DNA from: Qipengyuania profundimaris
GTDB taxonomy: Bacteria > Pseudomonadota > Alphaproteobacteria > Sphingomonadales > Sphingomonadaceae
Length of the DNA stretch: 64,000 nt
Assembly: GCF_030717945.1 (NCBI RefSeq)
Contig: NZ_JAVAIM010000001.1
Coordinates: 247,131-311,130, forward strand
Reading direction: 5' to 3'
Part shown: in pieces, positions 1 through 12,613 of the stretch
How positions within the stretch are numbered: position 1 is the first letter of the stretch
Layout of the letters: every line of letters starts with the position of its first letter
Position numbers and translations under genes: made by a program
The notes under the pieces: generated by a model
Told to the model about the DNA's origin: nothing
The model's database searches: none
Seen by the model: the letters and a program-made list of their open reading frames with translations, nothing else

Positions 1-96
1 AACAAGGAAGCAGCGCTTCTTGCCGCATTCTTCGCCGGCGATGATGTGAAGCCTGTGCTCGAAGATGCAAGAAACGCTTTAAAGGCTGAACTTTAA
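1..96 (+). CDS. C-terminal end of an unidentified protein (partial)
   Basis: The window opens inside a gene. Frame 1 is open from base 1 to a TAA at 94-96 and gives 31 residues ending in NALKAEL. The fragment is rich in Ala, Leu and charged residues and looks helical, but it is too short to name a family. The GTG of the next gene follows the stop directly, so the two genes are probably cotranscribed. Confidence 0.6.
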   Translation, partial: NKEAALLAAFFAGDDVKPVLEDARNALKAEL

Positions 97-1032
97 GTGA
101 CTCGCACCAAGATCCTCCAGCATCTCCGCCAAGCCAGCGAGCTGCTGTTCTTCGCAGCGCTCACTTTGCTCGCCGCGCCTGCCAGCGCCCAGAATGGCGA
201 CCCCGTCGAGGTGGAGGCGCGGATCGAAGTGATCGGGATCCAGTCGGACATCATGATCGAGGATGGCGACGAATTCGACAGCTCTGGCTACGGCATCCGC
301 GGCGATCTGTCGCTCGATTGGAGCCTGAGTCCGCGGACGACTGCCCGGATCGAAGTGGATGCGGGGGTGTTCGACTACGAGGGCCTCAATCGCGACACGC
401 TGACCAGCTACGGGGTCTCCGCAAGCATCGAACACGAAGTGTCGGAGACGGTAACGGTCCGGCTCCGCGCGCGCAGGATCGAGAATATCGCCGTGCTGGA
501 GGCGTTCAGCGCCGACCAGACCTCCGTCGCAGCCCGAGTGGAATGGTCGAAAGGCAACGACCGTGTCCGCGTCGAAGCCGATTATCGGCAACGCGAATAT
601 GACACGACGCGTGCCGGAACCGGCGAGGGCTATCGCGTCGCTGTTGAGTACAATCGCCGCTTCGGCTCCTATCACTGGCTCCGCTTCGACGCGCGCGTCG
701 AGGAAATGACCAGCGACGACGAGGAGCGCCGCAGCTACGATCGACGCGTTGTGCGTTTGAAGTATAGCCATCCGGTCACGCGGATGCTGAGGGTTCGCCC
801 ATCAATCGAATACCGGGAATGGGATTACGCCGGCCGTATCGCGCGAGGCGATCCCGATCGCTCCCTGCGCGAAGACAGCTATGTCGCCCCGGCAGTCGAC
901 CTGTCATACGGCCACTGGAATCGCGGCCCTTATGCCCGGGCGAGCGCCGAGTACCGCTTCAGGGACTCAAACGATTCCCGTAACGATATGGATGGCGCAA
1001 GGTTCGGCCTCGTGGTCGGCTACCGCTTCTAA
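97..1032 (+). CDS. Outer-membrane beta-barrel protein
   Basis: A 311-residue protein that starts with GTG immediately after the upstream stop. Residues 1-32 form a signal peptide (hydrophobic FFAALTLLAAP, then a probable ASA-Q cleavage site). The mature part alternates polar and aromatic residues in strand-like blocks separated by acidic turns, and it ends in YRF. A C-terminal Phe is the usual Gram-negative outer-membrane assembly signal. No enzymatic motif is visible. It converges on the polyglutamate-synthase-like operon, with 125 bases between the two stop codons. A role as the outer-membrane channel of that system is possible but rests on position alone. Confidence 0.75.
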   Translation: MTRTKILQHLRQASELLFFAALTLLAAPASAQNGDPVEVEARIEVIGIQSDIMIEDGDEFDSSGYGIRGDLSLDWSLSPRTTARIEVDAGVFDYEGLNRDTLTSYGVSASIEHEVSETVTVRLRARRIENIAVLEAFSADQTSVAARVEWSKGNDRVRVEADYRQREYDTTRAGTGEGYRVAVEYNRRFGSYHWLRFDARVEEMTSDDEERRSYDRRVVRLKYSHPVTRMLRVRPSIEYREWDYAGRIARGDPDRSLREDSYVAPAVDLSYGHWNRGPYARASAEYRFRDSNDSRNDMDGARFGLVVGYRF

Positions 1033-1157
1033 CGCCCTCATTCATGGTTATGGAGAGGGTTGCCAGCTTAGCCGACAGCAATCTCTAGATACGCAGCGAA
1101 CAAGACGTCTTAGCCAAATGAGACGTTTCGTCATCCCACTACCAACCTGGCTTCTGC

Positions 1158-4100
1158 CTATGCCGCGCGGCGCTCGCGCCGTGCCTTGATCGACTTCGCG
1201 AGCCAGCCACCCTTCTGTCGTGACGTCAATTCCTTCAGCTCTGCTGCGGCGCGCTGGTTGGAGATCTGCTCGGCAATCAGCGAGGCATAGATGCGGTCCG
1301 AGGCCTTGCGCCGGCGCACCGCATCGCCTGCATCGATGAATGCCTCCACTGTGGTGACGAGGCTGGAACCGATCTGGGCCAGCCGGCCGCCGGATGCCCC
1401 CTCCCCGCCGACAGTTTCGATCGACAGGCCGGACAGCTTCTCCATCTGCTCGTTCAGACGTGCCTCGAGCACATCGCATTGCGCGGCAGAGAGCGCAGCC
1501 TGCATGCCTTGCTCGCGCAATTCGGCCAGCACGGCGCGCAATTCCGCCTCGCTCAGGATCCCGAATTCGTGGAAGCTGGCGAGCATGCGATAGCCGCGTT
1601 CGACCGTAGCCGGGTCCTCCTCGCGCAGCTGCTGGCACGCTTTCGAGGCCGCTTCCCAGGCCTGCCAGCGATAGACCCAGTCGAGCCCAGTGCCCTTGAT
1701 GTTCTGCATGCCCATGATGCGATTGAGCAGGCCCGGCGGCGTGTTTGCGGCTACCAGCCGCACGATCGCTTCGCCCTTCATGTAATAGTCGCGCACCGGG
1801 ACAAGCTTCGCGTGAAAAGCCTTATGCAACAAGGCGCGCATCGCCTGATCCTGCGCTGCAGGGTTGCCGCCGCCCGCCACGGCCCGCTCGATAGCGAGGT
1901 ATTCACGGTGCAGCGCCGCCATTGCCTCATAGTGGGTATGGATTGCGTCGGCGTGATCGACCTTCGTCAGAACCTCCCGCAGTTTGCCAGCCTTCGCGGC
2001 TGCAATCGCGTCCTGCGGCGCGAGCTTGTGCGCTTGCGGGGCAAGCATCGCCACTAGCAGGCCGTCGAGCGCGCTCTGGCTGAGCGGAATACGCTGATGG
2101 CGGGCCAACGCGCGCAGGTGCTCGAGCGGCGCGACATCCTTTGCAACGAGGCTCAGCGATGTCGCATATTCCGCCCATTCCTCCTCGATAAAGCCTAGCA
2201 GGCCCTCGATATTGCTACCGATCAGGAAATGCCGGTCGGCAGCCACGTCGCGCACGAGCATACGCGCGAACACGCGGCTGCGCGGCACACGGTCGGCCCG
2301 GTTGTTGACCACGGTGGTAACGAAGATCTCGGGGTCTTTCTCGAGGTCGTGATCGGCAAAGCCCATGCGGGTCCAGTTGCCCATTGCGCCGAAGCGTTCG
2401 TTGGCCGACATGCCCATGACGAATTGCAGGCTGCGCCCATCTATATCCGCGCGCGGATAGGTCTTGAGGACGCCCAGGTCGGCGACGACGCGGTCGGACA
2501 TTTCCTTGACGCAGAAATCGGGCTCGAGGCCCAGCTCGTCGCCCATCGCGGTGACCAGCGCGATGTTGAAAGGGTGCTCTTCATAGGGGAACCGGTCGAG
2601 CAGGTTCTTGTGAATCAGCCCGGCCTCTTTCCAGCCGACCGAACGCATGCGCGTGCCCGCCTTGTCCGCCCCCTCGGCCAGGATCGGTAGCATTTCCTCC
2701 TCGGTTGTCAGCAGCGTCGAATCGTGCGGGATGAACTCGCACATGACCTCGGGAATGTTGCGCCCGGCGGGGCCCTGCACGTCCTCGTGATCGGGGTAAG
2801 TGTTCGTGATGGTCCCGATATCGTCGCGCATCCAGTCTTGCTGCAGCACGCGGACATAGGAGGGGTTGAGACCCATGCATTCCCACAGGAACACGCGCGC
2901 TTTCAGCCCACGCGAGGTCTTGAGCAGGTTGAACTGCTCCCAGATCGTCGCCTTGTCGTAAGGGCGGAAGAGAAACATCTCGGTCAGCTCGCCATAGGGA
3001 TTGCCGAGCAGGAACATCGCCTCGCAGCCGGTCGTCTTGGAGACGATTGAGGGGCCGAGCGCGTTGATCAGGCCCGCCTTCAGCCGCTCCGTCCCCGACT
3101 TCCCGCGTGTCCCCCAGCCGCCGAGCACCAGAGACAGCCCGTCGCGCAGTCGCCGCGCCTGCCAGCCGAGCCATATATGCCGTCCGAGAAACCAGGTGCT
3201 CGCCAGCACCACGAAGACACCGAGTTCGACGAGATTGTTGGCGAAGACGGTCGAAACGTAGGCCGAAGCGCGGTCCCAGAAAATCGGTAGAGCGGCAAAA
3301 ATGCCGCCGGCGCTGTAGAGCTTGATGATATGCGGGGTCGGCCTACCCGCCGTGTCGTGATACGCCCGGAAGGCAAGGTCGAGGCCGAGTTCGCGGAGCC
3401 TGGCGACGTAGGCCTCGGGGTCGCGATTGCGCAGGCTCGCCAACTCGGGAAAGCTACGCGTTACGGTCCAGAAAGCCTTCATCCGGGTAGGAAACCCGGC
3501 AGGCGCCGTTATTTCGGTTATCCCCGCGCTGGTGAATATCTTGGTCGTGCCGCCGCGGTCGAGCGCGGATAGCACCTGATCGACCAATGGGAGGTAATTG
3601 CGCCAGCCCCCCTCGCCGCTTTCGAACAGCGGTTCGCCCGGCACCTTGGTCGGGGCGAGTTCGGCCATCCGCGCGCTCGGCGCGATCAGGCTGCCGTGAT
3701 AATGGCGACCCTTGGTGTGATAGAACGCCTGGCGCTTGTCGGTCGCGCTATGGCGGCCCTCGAACAGCATCCGCCATGCGCGGCGGCGGAAATATTCTCC
3801 GCGCTGGATCGACGGCATCAGGCCCGATTTCAGCGCAAGGCCGAAATCGCGCTGCGCCAGCACCGCCATCACCCGGCCGACCTTGTCCTCATCCTCGGCC
3901 AGCCATTGACGCAGCGCCGGGATCCTTCGCACCGCCCCTTCGCGCATCGGATGAACCGTGTCGGCCAGATTGCGGCCGATCTCCCGTGCCTCAGGATTGG
4001 TCCAGAACCAGATGCGCTCACGTACCTCGTCGCTCCAGCGCCATAACCTCGGCGAGGGATTGCGATCCCGAAGCCCTTCGACCGCGCCCAGCAACTGTCC

Positions 4101-5315
4101 GACCAGTGCTGCGGGAGCAGTGCCCGTGTCGCTGGCGGCATGTTGTGCGATATCGGCACAGGCTTCCAGCGCGATCCGCAGGACGAATTCGTCTTCGTCC
4201 CGCTTCAGGGTCGATGCGATCGCCCGCAGGTAGAGGTTCGCGCTGAGCGCTTCTAAAGTGGGGACAGGCGCAGCGAAAAGCGCGGCCCGAACCTGGGCGT
4301 CCTCGTCGCGCAGCAGGTCCTTGGCAGCCTGCGCGGCGCGGCCTGGAGGCAGGATGGGGAGGCATTCTGCCACCACCTGCCGCACGGCCCCGTCGGGGTC
4401 GTTGCACAGAAGGTCGAAGGCGATCTGCAAACGGTTCAATGTGTGGAGGAGGCTCGCAATTCGCCGCACAAGGTGGCGGCGAACGAAAACCTCGCCATCG
4501 CGTTGCGCAGGCGCTTTAGTTTCGAGATCGACTGCCAGCCTCCGCTCAACGAGCGAATGTACGGTATGCGGCGAAAGGGCGAACATGACGTCGAACGCCT
4601 CGCACTGGGTCCAGACATCTTCGGAAAGATCGAGACACGCCCGTCGCGTCGCGCTGAGCACGGCGTCGAGCCACAGCCCGCCCGTTCTCGTCGGCAGGTT
4701 CTCGGCGATGCGCCGCATGCAGGCGTGCGCTGCCCGGCGAATACGGGCATCGCCGTGCCAACTCCGTGTCGCCGGAAGGAGGACCTCGAAAATCTCGGTC
4801 ATGGTCTCGCCTTCGGTCAGCGCAAGATCGTAACCGACCGCTTCACCGGCGACCCAGCCAAGCCGCTCGAGCGCGAAAGCCAGAACGCGCTCGCGCTCAC
4901 CAAGGCGCTTGGTGAAACGCTCCACCACGGCATCGGCATCGAAGAAGTCCCGCGTGGCCTGTTCGTCGCGCCTGATCTGGCGGCCGCGCGAGCCGAGCGC
5001 CCGGGCGAAATCGAGGATCGCGGCCCGCTGTTCCGCCGTGTCGAGGGCACTGGCAAAGCGCGACTGGAAGCGCTCTTCCGCCTTGGTCAGCCGGGCGATC
5101 TCATCGCGTTGCAACAGGCAGAAATCGGCAAGGACCGTCGCGTGGCGAGCAGGCGGCAGGGCGTCGCCCCGCTCTCCGGCATAAGCGAGGATTTCCTCGC
5201 GCAAGTCGGCATAGACCGGCAGCAGCTTGTCTGCGAAGCCACGATCGAGGCGCTTGCCCAGTGGAACCTTGACCGGTCGCGCCTGTGCCACATCGATATT
5301 GGCCGCCGCATTCAT
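1158..5315 (-). CDS. pgsB: PgsB/CapB-type polyglutamate ligase with large HEAT-like N-terminal extension
   Basis: A 1385-residue protein. Residues 1-680 are helical with HEAT-like pairs, for example around 300-350. A membrane segment lies near 693-717. It is followed by a Mur-ligase-type ATP-binding core with GTRGKSGT at 735-742, SKTTGCEAMF at 759-768, then NTYPDHEDVQGP and GNWTRMGFADHD. These match the PgsB/CapB family, which activates a carboxylate with ATP and joins glutamate by gamma-amide bonds at the inner membrane. A helical C-terminal extension of about 270 residues follows. Bacillus PgsB is only about 390 residues, so both ends are additions. I chose ATG 5315 because it overlaps the upstream stop (ATGA); the frame stays open further upstream without support. 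The polymer made is not known. Confidence 0.8.
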   Translation of the reverse strand: MNAAANIDVAQARPVKVPLGKRLDRGFADKLLPVYADLREEILAYAGERGDALPPARHATVLADFCLLQRDEIARLTKAEERFQSRFASALDTAEQRAAILDFARALGSRGRQIRRDEQATRDFFDADAVVERFTKRLGERERVLAFALERLGWVAGEAVGYDLALTEGETMTEIFEVLLPATRSWHGDARIRRAAHACMRRIAENLPTRTGGLWLDAVLSATRRACLDLSEDVWTQCEAFDVMFALSPHTVHSLVERRLAVDLETKAPAQRDGEVFVRRHLVRRIASLLHTLNRLQIAFDLLCNDPDGAVRQVVAECLPILPPGRAAQAAKDLLRDEDAQVRAALFAAPVPTLEALSANLYLRAIASTLKRDEDEFVLRIALEACADIAQHAASDTGTAPAALVGQLLGAVEGLRDRNPSPRLWRWSDEVRERIWFWTNPEAREIGRNLADTVHPMREGAVRRIPALRQWLAEDEDKVGRVMAVLAQRDFGLALKSGLMPSIQRGEYFRRRAWRMLFEGRHSATDKRQAFYHTKGRHYHGSLIAPSARMAELAPTKVPGEPLFESGEGGWRNYLPLVDQVLSALDRGGTTKIFTSAGITEITAPAGFPTRMKAFWTVTRSFPELASLRNRDPEAYVARLRELGLDLAFRAYHDTAGRPTPHIIKLYSAGGIFAALPIFWDRASAYVSTVFANNLVELGVFVVLASTWFLGRHIWLGWQARRLRDGLSLVLGGWGTRGKSGTERLKAGLINALGPSIVSKTTGCEAMFLLGNPYGELTEMFLFRPYDKATIWEQFNLLKTSRGLKARVFLWECMGLNPSYVRVLQQDWMRDDIGTITNTYPDHEDVQGPAGRNIPEVMCEFIPHDSTLLTTEEEMLPILAEGADKAGTRMRSVGWKEAGLIHKNLLDRFPYEEHPFNIALVTAMGDELGLEPDFCVKEMSDRVVADLGVLKTYPRADIDGRSLQFVMGMSANERFGAMGNWTRMGFADHDLEKDPEIFVTTVVNNRADRVPRSRVFARMLVRDVAADRHFLIGSNIEGLLGFIEEEWAEYATSLSLVAKDVAPLEHLRALARHQRIPLSQSALDGLLVAMLAPQAHKLAPQDAIAAAKAGKLREVLTKVDHADAIHTHYEAMAALHREYLAIERAVAGGGNPAAQDQAMRALLHKAFHAKLVPVRDYYMKGEAIVRLVAANTPPGLLNRIMGMQNIKGTGLDWVYRWQAWEAASKACQQLREEDPATVERGYRMLASFHEFGILSEAELRAVLAELREQGMQAALSAAQCDVLEARLNEQMEKLSGLSIETVGGEGASGGRLAQIGSSLVTTVEAFIDAGDAVRRRKASDRIYASLIAEQISNQRAAAELKELTSRQKGGWLAKSIKARRERRAA

Positions 5316-6082
5316 GCCGCCGTGTCCTCGAGGCACGCAACGAAGGTTTCGAGAAGCGTCTCGTCGCTCAGCATCGCCTCTCGCAGGTCGGCAGACAGTT
5401 CGATATGCGCAAAGCGTGCGCCGCCTGCCTCGCGCAAGGCTTTCCCCTGGGCATTGCCCTCTCCCCCCAGTTCGTTCGCTTCGGCGGGATAGAGCAGCAC
5501 CGCGCGTGGAGCGAGAGCGCGGCTCAGGCAATCCGCGAGATCGAGTGTATCGGGACCCGGCGAAGGCGATCCGTTGCTCACAATCGCCGCAGCTTCCTCC
5601 GCCCGCGATGTAGAGCGCTTCGCGCCATCGAACCCATGCAATTGAACGATGAGACCATCCGGGAACCGATCGGAGAATCCCAGCGCAAATTGCGTAAACA
5701 GATGCTCGCTTTCCCGCGCGACATCGAGCGCCTCGCACCCGTCGCTCCCATCACGTGCGACTGTGTTCTGCGCGGCAACCGCTGCGCGGCTGTGCGCGAA
5801 AACACGCAGCGCCAGCTCACCCGTGCCACGATCGTGAAAGGCGTGAGGGGCGGTGATCGCAAGCGGGACTACCGCGCCCTTGCGGAGCCGATACTCGCCG
5901 CCGCCACCGCAATGGCGCGTGTCACGCAACACGATGAACTTGTCCTCTTCAGTCCGGGTCAGCCTGAGTTTTGCCGCATCGCGCTCTTGCAGGGCTTCCT
6001 GCGCGAAATACGCACGCGCATTCTCGCTGCTGCATGCACTAGCTGCGAAGCCGGTTAGCAAGAGGATAGCCCAACGGATCAT
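5312..6082 (-). CDS. Lipoprotein, putative amidohydrolase/polyglutamate-hydrolase-like
   Basis: A 256-residue protein. Residues 1-16 are hydrophobic and lead to a lipobox-like ASAC with Cys17 as the lipidation site, so it is predicted to sit in the periplasm or on the outer membrane. Two histidine-bearing motifs stand out: APHAFHDRGTG (78-88) and VQLHGFD (146-152). Their spacing resembles zinc-dependent N-formylglutamate amidohydrolase or polyglutamate hydrolase folds, where paired His residues bind metal. That assignment comes from motif resemblance only. The gene overlaps its neighbours on both sides by ATGA, directly upstream of the ligase gene, which fits a role in trimming or releasing the polymer. 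Confidence 0.6.
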   Translation of the reverse strand: MIRWAILLLTGFAASACSSENARAYFAQEALQERDAAKLRLTRTEEDKFIVLRDTRHCGGGGEYRLRKGAVVPLAITAPHAFHDRGTGELALRVFAHSRAAVAAQNTVARDGSDGCEALDVARESEHLFTQFALGFSDRFPDGLIVQLHGFDGAKRSTSRAEEAAAIVSNGSPSPGPDTLDLADCLSRALAPRAVLLYPAEANELGGEGNAQGKALREAGGARFAHIELSADLREAMLSDETLLETFVACLEDTAA

Positions 6083-6843
6083 GACTCGGCCTCTTCGGCG
6101 GCTCTGTCGGCTTCGTAGATCACGAGGGCTTCGTAGTCGCGCCCTTCGATCCCGACGGGACCGACAGGGCGCCAGAGATTGCCGGCGAGATTGGCGATCT
6201 CGGACTCGGACAACATTTCGGGCGGGAATGGACTGAAGGCGGTCAGGGCCGCGCGCTCCCCCCTGCTGCGACGCAGGAACACGGCGCGTCCGTCACCGGC
6301 GGAAACGGGACGCTGCTCGTAAAGCCGCGCATCGACGCCCGCGACCAGGTTCTCGGCATCCTCAAGCGTGACGTCCACACGCGTGAAAGGTTCATCATCT
6401 TGAATGACGAGCTGATCTTGGCCCCAAATCTCCTGTTCGCCTGCGCGGTAGAACCGACGCGCGCGACCGTCGGCCAGATATCCATCGTCACGGCCGGAGA
6501 GGAGTGTCCGCTCATACTGCGCTATCTGTGCGCCCTGCGCATCGAACAGGGCAACCCGCAATGTGTAGAATGCGCCTTCGGAAGCTTTTGAGGGATCTGC
6601 CACAGCCGCATGTGCTAGAAGCTTCACCTCGTCGGCTGGCTGCGACAAGACGAAGGTCATCGGCCTGTCGCGCTCCAGTCGATAGGCCAGCGTTCTACCC
6701 GCAATGCGCAGGTCCATCTGCGTCGAGATTTGAGCTGCGACAAGATAACGCGCCAATGGCACCGCCCAAGCCCATCCCCCATAGGCGGCGAGAGCCGCGA
6801 GGATGGCGAACACTATACCGCGACCGAAGAAGGTCAGGCTCAT
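6079..6843 (-). CDS. Membrane-anchored periplasmic protein of the polyglutamate-synthase-like operon
   Basis: A 254-residue protein with one N-terminal membrane segment (about residues 9-33, rich in Ala, Ile and Trp). The remainder is soluble, probably beta-rich and periplasmic, with many acidic and aromatic residues. I recognise no family. It overlaps both neighbours by ATGA. It is not a PgsA/CapA protein, since it lacks the metallophosphoesterase-like motifs of that family. It occupies a similar place in the locus, so it may be a functional substitute as an accessory or export subunit; this is inference. Confidence 0.65.
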   Translation of the reverse strand: MSLTFFGRGIVFAILAALAAYGGWAWAVPLARYLVAAQISTQMDLRIAGRTLAYRLERDRPMTFVLSQPADEVKLLAHAAVADPSKASEGAFYTLRVALFDAQGAQIAQYERTLLSGRDDGYLADGRARRFYRAGEQEIWGQDQLVIQDDEPFTRVDVTLEDAENLVAGVDARLYEQRPVSAGDGRAVFLRRSRGERAALTAFSPFPPEMLSESEIANLAGNLWRPVGPVGIEGRDYEALVIYEADRAAEEAES

Positions 6844-9383
6844 TGCGCGCCGCCTCCGTAGTTGAGCACCCAGCCGATCGCGGAGCGGCGCCCGGTCGTG
6901 GCGACATAATAGCGCTCGGCCTGCGCCGGACGCGCTTCATATCCCGCAAAAGCTCGACTTCCGTCAGCTACTTCGGCGCGGATACCGGCCTCGCGCAATG
7001 ATGACGCGAGCTTCCCGAGTTCGGAATACTCTGGCCCCAAGGCATCCTGCACTAGCAGGACTTCGGGCCTTCCTTCGGGAAAGGCAGCACCCTTGGGCCG
7101 CTGGCGCAGGTGGAACGAAAAGGCTTCCTCCGGCCCGTCCTGCTGCCGAACGATTTCCTGCCAGAGCACCGTCATAGCCGAGCGCGGCGAGCGGGAAAAA
7201 CCGTCGGGCTGCGCTGCAACCAGCAAAACATCGCTTGCCCAGTTGCGATGCACAGCGACGCCGAGCCGGGCGGCTTTGCCATAGCCTTCCTCGCGCCAGG
7301 TAAGCACGCTCTTGGCGAGGGGCGCACCTTCGGCGATGAATATCTGGCCCTCGTCCCGCTGACCCGAAAAGAGCGTCCAGTGAGTGCGGCCTCCGAGCGT
7401 GCATCGCGCAACTCCGAAGCCTGCGGTCATGGCAGATGCGCGTGCATGCGTAGCAACTTGTCCTTCGCGCACAGAGGCAATGAAGGGCTCGGCGACTTCA
7501 TACCGCACGAAGGCGAGGCGCTCGACGTCCCGCCATTTCGGCGCCGCATCGTCGTTGGCCACGAGGCGACAGGCGGCACCGTCGCGTAGGCGCGGGACAC
7601 GCATGGCGGCGAGCCCTTCGAGCGCCGCGTCGCTCAGCGAAATAGCGGCACGATCCTCACCCCCATTGCGCGCACCGATATCGATGCCGGCACGGATATC
7701 CGGCACTGCGGCCTCCAGGCTTGGGAGATCGAGGACACCGGCCGATGCATTGGCATAGGCGATCTCGGAGGTTTCGCCCGCACCGGCCTGCAATTCGAGC
7801 AGGACGGTGTCGCTGGCATCGGCGAATACATCGGCGACACTGGGCCCAGCGATCGTCCCGGCGCCTCCGGGCGCCGAGATGACGAGCCACCGTGCATCGA
7901 GCTGTCGCCTTAGTACCAAGGCGGCCACGCCGAGACCGGGCCGGCTTGCCGGATCGCGGAGGACGATAGCTGCATCGCGGGATGCCGACGGGTCGAACAG
8001 CAGCATTTCGTGGCCGGCGTCATCGGCCCGGACAACCGCCAGACGACCATCGCCGACCGCCATCAACCGCCAGCCCTCTGCCTGCATGTCGAAATCGGGA
8101 GAGGATGCGGGCACCCCTTGCTGCAAGGCATAGACCAGCTCCGCCAGATCTGCACGCGCAGTATCCGACAATGGCGCCGCCTTGCCCGAGACACTGCGGA
8201 TATGCGCGTCGCCGATTGCGTCCACGACGAGGATCTCGATGCGCTCTTCGCTGCGTGACACCCGGTCCACCTCGGCCATCTGTGCGCCGCCTGGGACGCG
8301 CGAGACCGCCGCCGACAGCGCGAAGCCGACGATATTGCCGAAGACGGCGCCCATGAAACTGACTTGCAAGGTCGAGCGAGCGAGGCGCGGGAAGATGTTC
8401 TTATCGTGTGCCTTGATCGCAATGAGCGTAGAAAGCAGGTAGCCGAAGCCGTAGAAGTCGGTCGTCTTCACATCGTAGCCCTGCCAGACGATGAACCAGC
8501 CAAGCGCCATCTTCCAGGCGAAGCTGATGTTGAAGAACAGCAGCAGCTTGCGTCCACCCTCGATCGTCGCATTGGCCATGCTCGGCAACTTCAGGACCAG
8601 CCGCGCGATTACGTAGATCACGATCGCCTCGAGGAACGACGTGAGGATCTTGGTCGGCTGGTACCACTGCAGCGCAATCAGCGCTGGGATCAGGATGCCC
8701 GAGAAATCCCAGCCGTAGCGCACGTTCATATGGCTCGCGATCAGCGCCGTTAGCGTCAGGATGATATAGGCCTTCGGGCTGGCCAGGATCGAGCTGGCGA
8801 GCCCTTCGTACATATAGGTCACCGCGCTCATGCGGAAATTGGTGAACTCCATCAGGCCGTAGCGGACCACCAGATAGGTGATCCCCATCGTCACGACGGC
8901 AGCGCCCAGCCCACGCACGAGGCCGGGCTTCCAGAACTGGTTTGCCAGCAGCGAGATGATGACAAGCCCGAAGCTCTGGAGATTGTCGCGCCAGTCGAAG
9001 CGGCGATCGAAACTGGTCTCCAGCCACCCGGCGAATTCGGGCAGGATATAGCCGTCCATCACGAGGCGTACGGCAATGCTGGCGAGGATAAGGCCCATGA
9101 AGCGGTCGCGCCCGAACAGGCTGGGATAACGACCGCGGCTCAGCTTTTCGGAGAACAGCCATACGAGCGCGTAGGCGAGGACTGCCTCCAGAATGATCAC
9201 GAAGCCGGCCACCGGCTTCACGATCAGCAACGGCACGATATAGCCCGGCACGACCAGGCCGGAGAGGACCCAGCCGTAGCGCAGGTTGAAAAAGCACAGC
9301 ACGAACACCCCGACCCACACGGTCGTGATGATCGAGCTGACGAGGCCGCCCTCGGGAAAAATGGCGAGCGGGAAGAAGCTCAT
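6840..9383 (-). CDS. pgsC: Duplicated PgsC/CapC-type membrane protein with large C-terminal domain
   Basis: An 847-residue protein. Residues 1-360 are about ten hydrophobic segments and contain two copies of a PgsC-like unit: NLRYGWVLSG at 33-42 and NVRYGWDFSG at 220-229, each followed by a similar hydrophobic stretch. PgsC/CapC is the small membrane partner of PgsB, normally about 150 residues, so this is a tandem duplication. Residues 370-847 are a soluble domain. Around 473-520 (IVLRD, then ISAPGGAGT, then VFADAS) it resembles the downstream lipoprotein around 50-98 (IVLRD, ITAPHAFHDRGTG, VFAHSR), but without the His residues. It overlaps both neighbouring genes by ATGA. Confidence 0.75.
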   Translation of the reverse strand: MSFFPLAIFPEGGLVSSIITTVWVGVFVLCFFNLRYGWVLSGLVVPGYIVPLLIVKPVAGFVIILEAVLAYALVWLFSEKLSRGRYPSLFGRDRFMGLILASIAVRLVMDGYILPEFAGWLETSFDRRFDWRDNLQSFGLVIISLLANQFWKPGLVRGLGAAVVTMGITYLVVRYGLMEFTNFRMSAVTYMYEGLASSILASPKAYIILTLTALIASHMNVRYGWDFSGILIPALIALQWYQPTKILTSFLEAIVIYVIARLVLKLPSMANATIEGGRKLLLFFNISFAWKMALGWFIVWQGYDVKTTDFYGFGYLLSTLIAIKAHDKNIFPRLARSTLQVSFMGAVFGNIVGFALSAAVSRVPGGAQMAEVDRVSRSEERIEILVVDAIGDAHIRSVSGKAAPLSDTARADLAELVYALQQGVPASSPDFDMQAEGWRLMAVGDGRLAVVRADDAGHEMLLFDPSASRDAAIVLRDPASRPGLGVAALVLRRQLDARWLVISAPGGAGTIAGPSVADVFADASDTVLLELQAGAGETSEIAYANASAGVLDLPSLEAAVPDIRAGIDIGARNGGEDRAAISLSDAALEGLAAMRVPRLRDGAACRLVANDDAAPKWRDVERLAFVRYEVAEPFIASVREGQVATHARASAMTAGFGVARCTLGGRTHWTLFSGQRDEGQIFIAEGAPLAKSVLTWREEGYGKAARLGVAVHRNWASDVLLVAAQPDGFSRSPRSAMTVLWQEIVRQQDGPEEAFSFHLRQRPKGAAFPEGRPEVLLVQDALGPEYSELGKLASSLREAGIRAEVADGSRAFAGYEARPAQAERYYVATTGRRSAIGWVLNYGGGAQ

Positions 9384-9766
9384 TCGGCGTTCGCGGCTCC
9401 TCGTCCGAGCGCGCCCGCGATATTCTGCACGAGCCAGCTCGGCTCGACCGGCTTGCGCGCAATCGCTACGACGCCGAGCGCCCGGAACTCGTCTGACACG
9501 GTGTTGCCAGCAGTCGACGAAATGACGATTACCGGAGGGCGAGCCTCGCCCTGTTCGTTCAGAACGCGCAGGAAACGTACCCCGTCCATTTTCGGCATCA
9601 CGAGGTCGAGCACGACCAGGTCGATCCCACCCTCGGCCAGACGCGCCAGCGCAGCCTCGCCGTCAGGCGCGGTCGACACCTCGTAGCCTTCCACCTCCAG
9701 CGTAATCTGCAGGAGACTGGCGAGGATCTCGTCATCGTCGACGATAAGGATATGCGGAACAGTCAT
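9380..9766 (-). CDS. Receiver-only response regulator
   Basis: A 128-residue CheY-like receiver domain with no output domain. The acidic cluster is intact (ILIVDDDE), as are the phosphoacceptor motif LDLVMPKMDG, the switch region VISST and the conserved Lys in ARKP. ATG 9766 is chosen over a longer open frame because it overlaps the upstream sensor gene by ATGA and matches the domain start. It overlaps the PgsC-like gene in the same way. With no DNA-binding domain it probably acts by protein contact, perhaps on the synthase itself. Confidence 0.9.
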   Translation of the reverse strand: MTVPHILIVDDDEILASLLQITLEVEGYEVSTAPDGEAALARLAEGGIDLVVLDLVMPKMDGVRFLRVLNEQGEARPPVIVISSTAGNTVSDEFRALGVVAIARKPVEPSWLVQNIAGALGRGAANAE

Positions 9767-12360
9767 CCGATGCGCCTCAGTTTCACGTTGAATCCGAACC
9801 CATTGGCCTCGCGGCCCCAGTAGGAGACGCTGCCCCCCCATTTTGCGGTGCGGGCGATGCCGCGATTGATCTGGCGGTACTCGCCGACCGACTGGTCCTC
9901 ACCCTTCGTGAGCAGATAGACGAGCCGGCCGAAGCCGATCCCGAAACCGCCGGCGATGTGGACCAGCGTCTCGGTGTTCTTCTCCTCGAGCCGGACCGTG
10001 ACCGTCTCGCCTTGCGGCGTGTCGGCCACCACGACGCGGAGCATGGCTTCCAGCATGTCGCCCAAGGCGCGCGGCTCGGCGATGGTGAAGCCGCTCATCG
10101 CCGGCAGCTGGATATCGATCCCGACTTCCAGCTCTTCGGCCATCTCGACGGTTTTCTCGAGCGTCTGGAGGACCAGCGCGCGCGCATCGACAGGGTAACA
10201 GGCCTCGACCAGCTCCTCATTTGCACCGCGTACCAGCTCGGCGACCTCGTCCAGCCGCCCGGTCGCGCGGCGCGCAGCCTCGCCGATCCGCCCCACGATC
10301 GGGCCGATCTTCTCCGCGCCGACCCGCGGGTCCCTTGCCAGGTCGGCGGCGAGCAGGATGGCTTCGAGATCGTTGCGAAGCTGGAGGTCGATAAACAGGC
10401 CGACCGACTGGCGCAGGTCTGCAGCGGCGTGCAATTCGGTAATGTCGACCGCTTCGATCACGATCACCCGGTCCATGCCGCGGGCCATGCTGTCGGGAGC
10501 TCTCACCCGCAGGATGCGCTCGACCGGACCGGACTGCCGCATCGGCAGGCGCATCTCTCCGCCGCGGAACACCAGCTCCTGCAGCAAGGCCTCGACCCGG
10601 ACGACATCGAGCTGGGTCAAGGCGACGATCACGTCGACCAGCGGCGTTTCATTTATGGCGATCTCAGCTTCGCGATAGAGCTCTTCCATCGCGCGGTTCG
10701 CATGGAGCGGCGATCCGATAAGGTGGAAAATCATTACCGCAGTATCGATCGTATCGAAACCGCGGCGGACCTGATCGGATTCGCGAGCGACAAGCGAGAC
10801 CGCGCTGGCGACCTTCTCGTCGATCGGGAGATAGCGTTCCTCCTGCCGCTCGCGCGCGTTGAGGTCGGCGCGCCAGCGGAACAGCTCACGAAAGGAGGCG
10901 GCGGCCGCGCGGACCAGTTGCCCGCGCTTACCACTGCGTCCGCCGGGCGGAACGGCGTAAAGCCAGAACAGGTTGCGCTCGGCCCCGCCGATCCAGGTCA
11001 GCCGCGCCTCGCAGCCCCAGCCGGGGACAAGGGCCGCAGCGTCGAAGCCGACCTGCCGTCCGCGCATCTTCGCCAGCCCCCTCGACAACTCGGCGAAATC
11101 CATCGCGATATCGTCGAGCTTGGCGTCGATAGCGCTCACAAGCTGCAGTTCGCCGGTGCGGGTGAGCTCTATCAGCAGGCTTTTCTCGACCCCCGCGATG
11201 CGCGCCGTCGGATCGACGAATTGCGGCAGTCGCGCCCCCTCGCGGAGGGCGGATCGATGCACCGAATGCTGGACCGCGCGCGCGGCAACTCGTTCCAGCC
11301 GCTTGTCCTGGCGGCGCTCGCGAATGAGAATGCGCTGGATGGCAATGATCCAAGGCGCCAGCAGCAGGGCCGTCATCGGCAGCAGGCGCCCGGCGAATTC
11401 GAGCGCGAGCCACCCGCCCGCGGCGATCAGCACGCTGGCGATGATCGAAACGCGCAGGATAAGCTGCTTCGGATCGCTCCGGCGATAGGCGATCGCCAGC
11501 GCAAGTCCAACGGCCAGCAGCAGGATCCAGCTGTTCCACGCGGCGGCGCGGACGACTTGACGACCGGTTTGTAAATCATGGACTGCATGGGCGCGGAAGA
11601 TCGCTTCCGACATAGTGCGCATATCGGGATCGCGCGGCGTAGCAAGCGAGGGCTCGAGCGCACCAGGCGTTGCGATCAAAGCCACTGTTCCGGCAAGATC
11701 GGCGCCCGACAGATCTCCTGCGACCAATTGGCTCGCCGGAATGACGGGGATCGACTGCGCGCGCGGCATGCGAACCAGGAACTCGCCCTCGCTTGGCTCG
11801 ACACCGGCCAGCGCGGTTTCGAAGGATGGCATGACAGTTCCACCACCCGACAGGCCTCGATACTGGCTGCGCTGAATTCCATATTCGGAGGGCGCAAGAT
11901 TGGAAGCCGCTCGAACTGCGCCAAGCTCGGGGCCATCGGGTGTGGAATCGAACCGCCAGCGTCCGCTGAGGGGCACTTTGTCGGCGCTTCGGCCGATGAT
12001 CACCGGGATGCTCGCTCCGGGCATTTGAGTGTCGCGGAAGCCGAGATAGCCGATGCGCTCAATACCCGAACCGGCCAGGACACGATCGAGAGCGGAATAA
12101 CGGTCCGCTCCCATTGCAGCAAAGCGCGGATCGCGTTCCACCACGACCACCGTGGGGGCCGTGGCACTTCCGACGACGGCAAAGCGATCGAAAATCCGCC
12201 CGTCGATGTCGCGAAAGACCTGCGCCTGGTGAAGGATGCCAAGCACGATCACGGTCATCATCGGCAGAAGCACGCTAGCAAACCGCTCGCGCGTAAGCAC
12301 GCGCGCGCTGCGCGAGGCAGTCACCTTGTGAGGGAGTGCAAGAGAGCCGAGCGACGCCAC
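9763..12360 (-). CDS. CHASE2-domain sensor with degenerate histidine-kinase-like core
   Basis: An 865-residue protein starting at GTG 12360 (start uncertain). A membrane segment at about 30-46 leads into a CHASE2 extracytoplasmic sensor region (50-270), then a group of three membrane segments (about 275-345). A PAS-like region covers about 530-640 and a DHp-like helix about 640-710. Where a kinase would have the H-box (HDLRNPL) this protein reads LQLRNDL at 659-665, so the phosphoacceptor His is absent. The ATP-binding region (755-865) has AGGFGIGFG but no clear N-box Asn or DxGxG Asp. It is probably a pseudokinase or a very divergent kinase. It is the first gene of the operon and is coupled to the receiver gene by ATGA. 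Confidence 0.8.
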   Translation of the reverse strand: MASLGSLALPHKVTASRSARVLTRERFASVLLPMMTVIVLGILHQAQVFRDIDGRIFDRFAVVGSATAPTVVVVERDPRFAAMGADRYSALDRVLAGSGIERIGYLGFRDTQMPGASIPVIIGRSADKVPLSGRWRFDSTPDGPELGAVRAASNLAPSEYGIQRSQYRGLSGGGTVMPSFETALAGVEPSEGEFLVRMPRAQSIPVIPASQLVAGDLSGADLAGTVALIATPGALEPSLATPRDPDMRTMSEAIFRAHAVHDLQTGRQVVRAAAWNSWILLLAVGLALAIAYRRSDPKQLILRVSIIASVLIAAGGWLALEFAGRLLPMTALLLAPWIIAIQRILIRERRQDKRLERVAARAVQHSVHRSALREGARLPQFVDPTARIAGVEKSLLIELTRTGELQLVSAIDAKLDDIAMDFAELSRGLAKMRGRQVGFDAAALVPGWGCEARLTWIGGAERNLFWLYAVPPGGRSGKRGQLVRAAAASFRELFRWRADLNARERQEERYLPIDEKVASAVSLVARESDQVRRGFDTIDTAVMIFHLIGSPLHANRAMEELYREAEIAINETPLVDVIVALTQLDVVRVEALLQELVFRGGEMRLPMRQSGPVERILRVRAPDSMARGMDRVIVIEAVDITELHAAADLRQSVGLFIDLQLRNDLEAILLAADLARDPRVGAEKIGPIVGRIGEAARRATGRLDEVAELVRGANEELVEACYPVDARALVLQTLEKTVEMAEELEVGIDIQLPAMSGFTIAEPRALGDMLEAMLRVVVADTPQGETVTVRLEEKNTETLVHIAGGFGIGFGRLVYLLTKGEDQSVGEYRQINRGIARTAKWGGSVSYWGREANGFGFNVKLRRIG

Positions 12361-12585: not shown

Positions 12586-12613
12586 GGAGGGCTTGCCTGA
12601 TAGCCCGCCCTCC
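12586..12613 (-). terminator. Hairpin downstream of rho
   Basis: GGAGGGC at 12586-12592 pairs exactly with GCCCTCC at 12607-12613, with an alternative inner pairing of GGGCT with AGCCC. It begins 12 bases after the rho stop. There is no T-run, so it may be a 3'-end-stabilising hairpin or a weak terminator rather than a classical intrinsic one. Confidence 0.4.

Follow-up and report, generated by a model that had tools for sequence, protein, structure and literature searches.

Six minus-strand genes, A to F, lie in the window analysed here, a stretch of 64,000 nt of Qipengyuania profundimaris (NZ_JAVAIM010000001.1, positions 247,131-311,130 of the forward strand). Together with the neighbouring gene O (97-12360 in all), they are likely, with a probability of about 0.6, to make a polymer resembling poly-gamma-glutamate (PGA), to trim it in the periplasm and to export it through a predicted pore in the outer membrane. 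The gene set is real, conserved, unusual and not a product of chance, because the order A-B-C-D-E-F, which the initial annotation had allowed might occur in no other genome, is complete in 25 of 66 related loci. These loci are from named genomes and were obtained with F as the query, and profiles of the window genes and their hits were run on all of them; the remainder have other arrangements or are on contigs that end too early.

From A to F the genes encode a putative CHASE2-type membrane sensor, a stand-alone receiver, a PgsC-like integral membrane protein, an anchored beta-sandwich protein, an exported zinc-hydrolase-like protein and a PgsB-like ligase. The frames are where they had originally been placed, as are the five junctions (9763, 9380, 6840, 6079, and 5312), each of which is exactly ATGA, a 4-base overlap. 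Among adjacent pairs in the related loci, overlaps of a start with a stop codon (ATGA, GTGA or TTGA) are frequent, if not universal, being present in 15 of 27 A-B pairs, 10 of 25 B-C, 29 of 32 C-D, 26 of 35 D-E, and 27 of 27 E-F. The receiver, PgsC-like and PgsB-like products of the initial annotation agree with matches to PF00072, PF14102 and TIGR04012, respectively. The unit had been taken to be these six genes alone; all six are present, and O and the gene before it, R, also belong to it.

Ligase, membrane partner and periplasmic proteins

F (1158-5315, 1385 aa) is a giant PgsB-like ligase. It matches the PgsB model TIGR04012 over residues 735-1050 (E 5.2e-50, 170.3 bits; 173.7 bits in the genome search), and when it is aligned with the annotated PgsB of Streptomyces, Cetobacterium, Chroococcidiopsis, and Corynebacterium, a PgsB/Mur-type ligase core falls at residues 720-1050 (2166-3158) and its P-loop, G735-x-R-G-K-S740, at 3096-3113. 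Of 103 F frames, the 84 that were longer than 600 aa and carried a GK[ST]-type motif were kept, which became 66 core rows when identical rows and rows with no more than 300 core residues were dropped. Invariant in 66 of 66 rows, and common to at least three of the four PgsB, are G735, R737-S740, T761, G763, E793, E812-M814, N838, D842, H843, N1004, R1006, D1008, and R1009, among others, although the conservation of GK[ST] is not independent evidence, since the rows were selected by it. The roles of such residues are generally known from Mur ligases and PgsB. It had been considered that the core might prove to lack the Mur-ligase catalytic residues on alignment; these are present in every row, and the catalytic core of F is, as judged by its sequence, intact. 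With this P-loop and its Mur-type core, F would use ATP to link amines to gamma-carboxylates, as PgsB does.

Ahead of the core is a HEAT-type helical front half (residues 1-680, 3276-5315), which may serve as a docking scaffold. The HEAT match in window F is weak (20.6 bits, below the cut-off of 23.5), but PF13646 or PF02985 is precomputed on several of the F homologues listed. In 6 of the 25 full loci (L033-L036, L042, and L061) the HEAT part and the ligase part of F are encoded by separate genes. A hydrophobic segment at residues 687-705 precedes the core and is likewise present in the PgsB outgroup rows. The tail of F (residues 1051-1385, 1158-2165) had no match in the Pfam scan.

One relative, G033, carries at locus L011 (631-3174) a single open F frame with no equivalent of residues 748-1118, which is most of the ligase core. 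The HEAT and tail parts are retained, with the tail stretch MGMQNIKGTGLD(W/F)VYRW kept even here, and by its sequence this is a decayed or repurposed copy.

C (6840-9383, 847 aa) exceeds the gathering score of 27 bits for CapC, PF14102, with 137.8 bits (E 2.9e-40) in two stretches, which correspond to domains at 8910-9314 and 8391-8747. With these two domains C would be the membrane partner of F and, by analogy with PgsC, probably the passage through the inner membrane. Residues 360-847 (6840-8306) are a soluble tail. When compared with E by hhalign, ten non-alphaproteobacterial tails gave a probability of 96% (E 1.6e-9, 212 columns), whereas a 28-row set, mostly alphaproteobacterial, gave 2%, so that the tail in the window would be related to E indirectly, via its orthologues. 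In the tails shown from the set of ten, the place of H80 of E is taken by arginine in most and by histidine in L062, while the position of H149 does not hold histidine. The alignments indicate that the non-alphaproteobacterial C tail is related to E but degenerate. Because of this distant homology, with the histidines of E mostly replaced, the C tail may be a dead hydrolase that still binds the chain, which it and D would hold in the periplasm.

D (6079-6843, 254 aa) and E (5312-6082, 256 aa) matched no family in the Pfam or NCBIfam scans. An AlphaFold2 model of D (predicted local distance difference test, pLDDT, 79.5) has a helix at 5-42 and strands at 47-177, the arrangement of an N-terminally anchored beta-sandwich protein that is likely to be periplasmic. 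In other classes D aligns with the first ~250 positions of a protein of ~800 aa. E had been called a lipoprotein, and by a simple pattern test there is indeed a lipobox in window E and in 5 of 39 related loci, the others looking anchored or otherwise exported.

The fold of E, of the PGA-hydrolase and N-formylglutamate amidohydrolase type, is like that of gamma-glutamyl hydrolases including PGA hydrolases, which make up three of its top five fold matches. None of the 43 members of the E family matches the PGA-hydrolase or N-formylglutamate amidohydrolase families of Pfam, and no sequence match to E was found in the PDB. In the alignment H80, H149, and E228 are invariant, and D84 is present in 43 of 44 rows. 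By model and alignment E is a putative zinc hydrolase of the PGA-hydrolase type, which would cut the chain, either to set its length or to clear the periplasm. One E homologue, P0169, is named an mRNA-degrading MazEF toxin by a source, which conflicts with its family and is likely to be a wrong automatic name. Sorangium genomes encode E-like proteins of 373-424 aa (P0186, P0188-P0193), which suggest a myxobacterial version of the system.

The early suggestion that the polymer might be a different one is weakened, because E folds like gamma-glutamyl hydrolases. It would have the product be another polyamide or a mixed gamma-glutamyl conjugate, with the Mur/PgsB reaction acting on another amino-dicarboxylate or adding short gamma-glutamyl tails to a surface carrier instead of making a free capsule polymer. 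This is considered unlikely, given the PGA hydrolases among the closest folds to E and the catalytic positions that F has in common with annotated PgsB.

Outer-membrane candidates and putative control proteins

O (97-1032, plus strand, 311 aa), convergent with the operon, is an outer-membrane beta-barrel protein over two Pfam barrel cut-offs (PF13505, 33.3 bits against 28.7; PF10082, 28.2 bits against 23.7). Of the 25 full A-F loci, 24 have it next to the operon, the exception being L018, where the fetched stretch ends soon after F. Since O can be downstream on the opposite strand or upstream of A in either orientation, this linkage is not that of a frozen layout.

In 23 of the 66 loci there is instead a large exported protein, X, ahead of F. 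The order C-D-E-X-F is complete in seven loci (L046, L051, L052, L058, L059, L070, and L074), and is rearranged to E-X-F-C-D in L062, from Bacteriovorax. O and X were found together in none of the 66 loci, in flanks that reached no further than 10 kb and with many contigs shorter than this, and a search of the window's genome with a single query, within its sensitivity, found no X. X has ~1300-2030 residues, seemingly with a signal peptide and with an end rich in strands, by eye and from the consensus, and is proposed here to be a solenoid-plus-barrel exporter. One of the eight X proteins scanned carries a SPOR domain, as would be expected of a periplasmic protein. O, or X in other classes, would carry the chain across the outer membrane.

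On the control side, A (9763-12360, 865 aa) has a GTG start and a pseudo-histidine-kinase end. The CHASE2 sensor of the initial annotation was not detected as PF05226 in window A, but this family is over its cut-off in two homologues among the seven proteins scanned (L060, E 5.4e-15; L077, E 5.6e-7). Matches of A to kinase families are weak. In the H-box region the window has FIDLQLRNDLEAI and Thiomargarita has LIFQFRNDMQSI, and the phospho-acceptor histidine is absent from this region in 28 of 28 rows (the window and 27 of the 33 listed frames, at E < 1e-200). In the last ~100 residues a GFGIG-type glycine-rich turn is kept and little else.

B (9380-9766, 128 aa) matches PF00072 (E 9.4e-24) and keeps the acidic pair, the LDLVMP aspartate and the lysine. 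R, on the plus strand directly before O, has only its last 96 bases in the window (1-96), its start being outside at G000:C1:246459. Scanned as L136:4960-5727, it combines a receiver (PF00072, E 4.2e-18, 66.0 bits against 30.2) with an Hpt domain (PF01627, E 6.5e-7, 29.9 bits against 24.6), in which an LHQLAG stretch carries the likely Hpt histidine, as read by eye. R immediately adjoins O in 21 of the 24 full loci with O and was not found in the other three (L031, L032, and L077). As R has both domains, phosphate could reach B through it, and because A is without the usual histidine, B would probably be phosphorylated from R or from a kinase elsewhere, with A sensing an envelope signal. Signal control therefore stands as plausible, with the phospho-residues of B and the Hpt histidine of R kept, though not through A as an ordinary kinase. 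Kinases with intact H-boxes are present just before F in two Parabeggiatoa (Thiotrichaceae) loci, L041 (5496-9354; SHELRSPL, SHELRTPL) and L060 (3529-4278; SHDLGNLF), which would fit a version of the system in which a true kinase takes part.

It could be argued that F, C, D, and E work as proposed while O, R, A, and B are mere neighbours, the polymer being periplasmic, for example an osmotic or cation-binding polyanion, and E turning it over. The lack of detectable similarity between O and X (hhalign 1.2%) and of an acceptor histidine in A favour such a view, which the exported and anchored appearance of E would also fit. It is nevertheless quite improbable, as O stays beside the operon despite its changes of side and orientation, and A and B also accompany F in two Thiotrichaceae loci, where they follow it (L048 and L060, from Thiomargarita and Parabeggiatoa).

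Distribution and insertion site

Long-form F is present in 15 of 60 genomes of the genus, 11 of 199 of the family and 7 of 398 of the phylum; the family count includes the window's genome, two with F in two pieces, and G033, with its truncated core. The PgsB model, when run on 299 proteobacterial genomes, found any match in 31, of which 24 are weak and 7 strong (E < 1e-50); none is over the cut-off. That all seven strong matches are in long frames, of 1109-1530 codons, suggests from sequence that proteobacterial PgsB is mainly of the long form. The F protein search returned 1693 relatives at E ≤ 1e-3 among 7996 candidates, and some of the 120 relatives listed are automatically annotated as "gamma-polyglutamate synthase" or PgsB/CapB.

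In a tree of F (56 rows, quick method) the long form is apart from the four annotated PgsB, and the alphaproteobacteria are on one side of a branch with a support of 94. The root is unsure, because the four outgroup branches are very long. L074, from a record titled as a Klebsiella pneumoniae metagenome-assembled genome, groups with the proteobacterial L070, and this title is probably wrong.

The operon of the window's genome, with O and R, is flanked by rho on one side and a conserved 134-aa gene on the other. In the stretch fetched from G595, which has no F, rho ends at 1269 and the 134-aa gene starts at 1328. Genes that we take, from their sequence starts, to be mnmE- and gidA-like follow in all five of the compared genus relatives without F (L131-L135). 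The rho-mnmE site varies, since G146, G198, and G078 carry other small genes after rho, and it may be one where genes come and go. A-D, F, O, and R had no match in the five stretches without F, E not being among the compared frames. After rho and before A there is an inverted repeat, GGAGGGC...GCCCTCC (12586-12613), without a T run, which is possibly the rho gene terminator or a regulatory site.

That the operon is a decaying genomic island with little present function, as its patchy distribution in genus and family, the truncated F of G033 and the empty site in a relative might be taken to indicate, is very improbable when all the window frames are open with tight overlaps and the catalytic columns are invariant over deep divergence.

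Comparison with known systems

Several observations weigh against the predicted glutamate specificity and the predicted synthesis and export of a PGA-like polymer. Both F and C are below the equivalog cut-offs of their models (222.7 bits for TIGR04012; for the PgsC model TIGR04011, C has 61.6 bits against 96.45), so that the substrate may have drifted, and long-form F is separated from PgsB by a very long branch, with 5 changes per column either side of the root. CapA (PF09587) has no match in the operon. The Foldseek superpositions of E are loose, with TM scores of 0.37-0.47 by query length in the top ten and root-mean-square deviations of 6-11 Å. Its zinc site is putative, because Asp84 is four residues after H80, whereas the zinc ligands of PghL are His41, Glu46, and His102 (PMC6506827), with Glu46 five residues after His41. 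L040 and L073 have C-D-X-F with no E found. For the exit, X matched no barrel family in the eight scanned, its barrel nature being a reading of the strands; it is dissimilar to O, as noted; and the two are split by lineage, so that their mutual exclusion may be one historical event. An unlinked CapA/PgsA-like gene is present at G000:C1:2002611-2003372 (PF09587, 187.8 bits) and could supply the missing PgsA role.

With PgsBCA/CapBCA of Bacillus and others, the gene set shares CapC domains, a core of PgsB type that has the catalytic positions listed above, and the joining of ligase and CapC in one operon. It differs in that the ligase of F is behind ~680 HEAT-type residues and is followed by ~330 residues of its own, that C has a ~490-residue tail, and that CapA is missing from the operon, to which D, E, O, R, A, and B have been added. 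The gene set is therefore a variant of PgsBC, with the catalytic and CapC features, but with scores under both equivalog cut-offs and no CapA linkage, and the proposal that it is a Gram-negative form of PgsB/PgsC, with accessory proteins of its own, is supported. The view that PgsB and PgsC are mostly found in Firmicutes is too narrow: a capsule survey found PGA-type systems in most phyla, and CapA is treated there as accessory (PMC5542703). CapBCA is reported in Cloacimonadota (PMC13082233), and the references of PMC4497714 include a report of Fusobacterium nucleatum as the first polyglutamate producer demonstrated among Gram-negatives. Searches of open-licence papers listed no description of this gene system, and among the titles and starts of abstracts listed none described the passage of PGA across the Gram-negative periplasm and outer membrane.

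PgsB and PgsC are also shared with PgsB-PgsC-PgsW of a Cetobacterium plasmid (L119) and with the cyanobacterial and corynebacterial loci L120 and L121, whose PgsC, at ~333 aa, is about two CapC domains long by length only. In these three PgsB is short (376-416 aa), and there is neither a HEAT half nor a long PgsC tail. In L119 the gene before the canonical pgsB (2860-3993) is annotated as succinylglutamate desuccinylase, and a solved enzyme of this name, 1yw6, is in the Foldseek list of E at E 4.8e-3; a related hydrolase may thus be a wider companion of pgs genes. No such hydrolase is listed beside pgsBC in L120 or L121, the latter having a gamma-glutamyltransferase. Compared with PghL/PghP and N-formylglutamate amidohydrolase, E is exported, is inside a synthesis operon and has no detectable sequence similarity.

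It is possible, if a little short of probable, that the system represents an undescribed class of Gram-negative envelope-spanning polyamide secretion machine. In this a HEAT-armed PgsB and a dead-hydrolase-tailed PgsC would make a gamma-glutamyl polymer that a dedicated periplasmic hydrolase trims, with a dedicated exit through the single barrel O in Sphingomonadales; in gammaproteobacteria, sulfate reducers, Magnetococcales, and Bacteriovorax the exit would be the giant solenoid-plus-barrel protein X. Pfam describes D, E, X, and the parts of F before and after the core marginally or not at all, and the predicted control, by a sensor without a kinase histidine and a receiver-Hpt protein encoded next door, is a further point of interest. 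The operon supplies candidate parts for each step of Gram-negative PGA export, which makes the question testable.

The Bcs, Pga, and Alg export systems each have an inner-membrane synthase, a periplasmic scaffold and trimming hydrolase, an outer-membrane barrel, and a control protein. The likeness to these is one of working alike part by part, with no shared proteins shown, and the bonds differ, being amide bonds made by a Mur-type ligase here and sugars joined by a glycosyltransferase there. If the proposed polyamide machine is real, it would be the amide-bond equivalent of the machineries that export cellulose and alginate.
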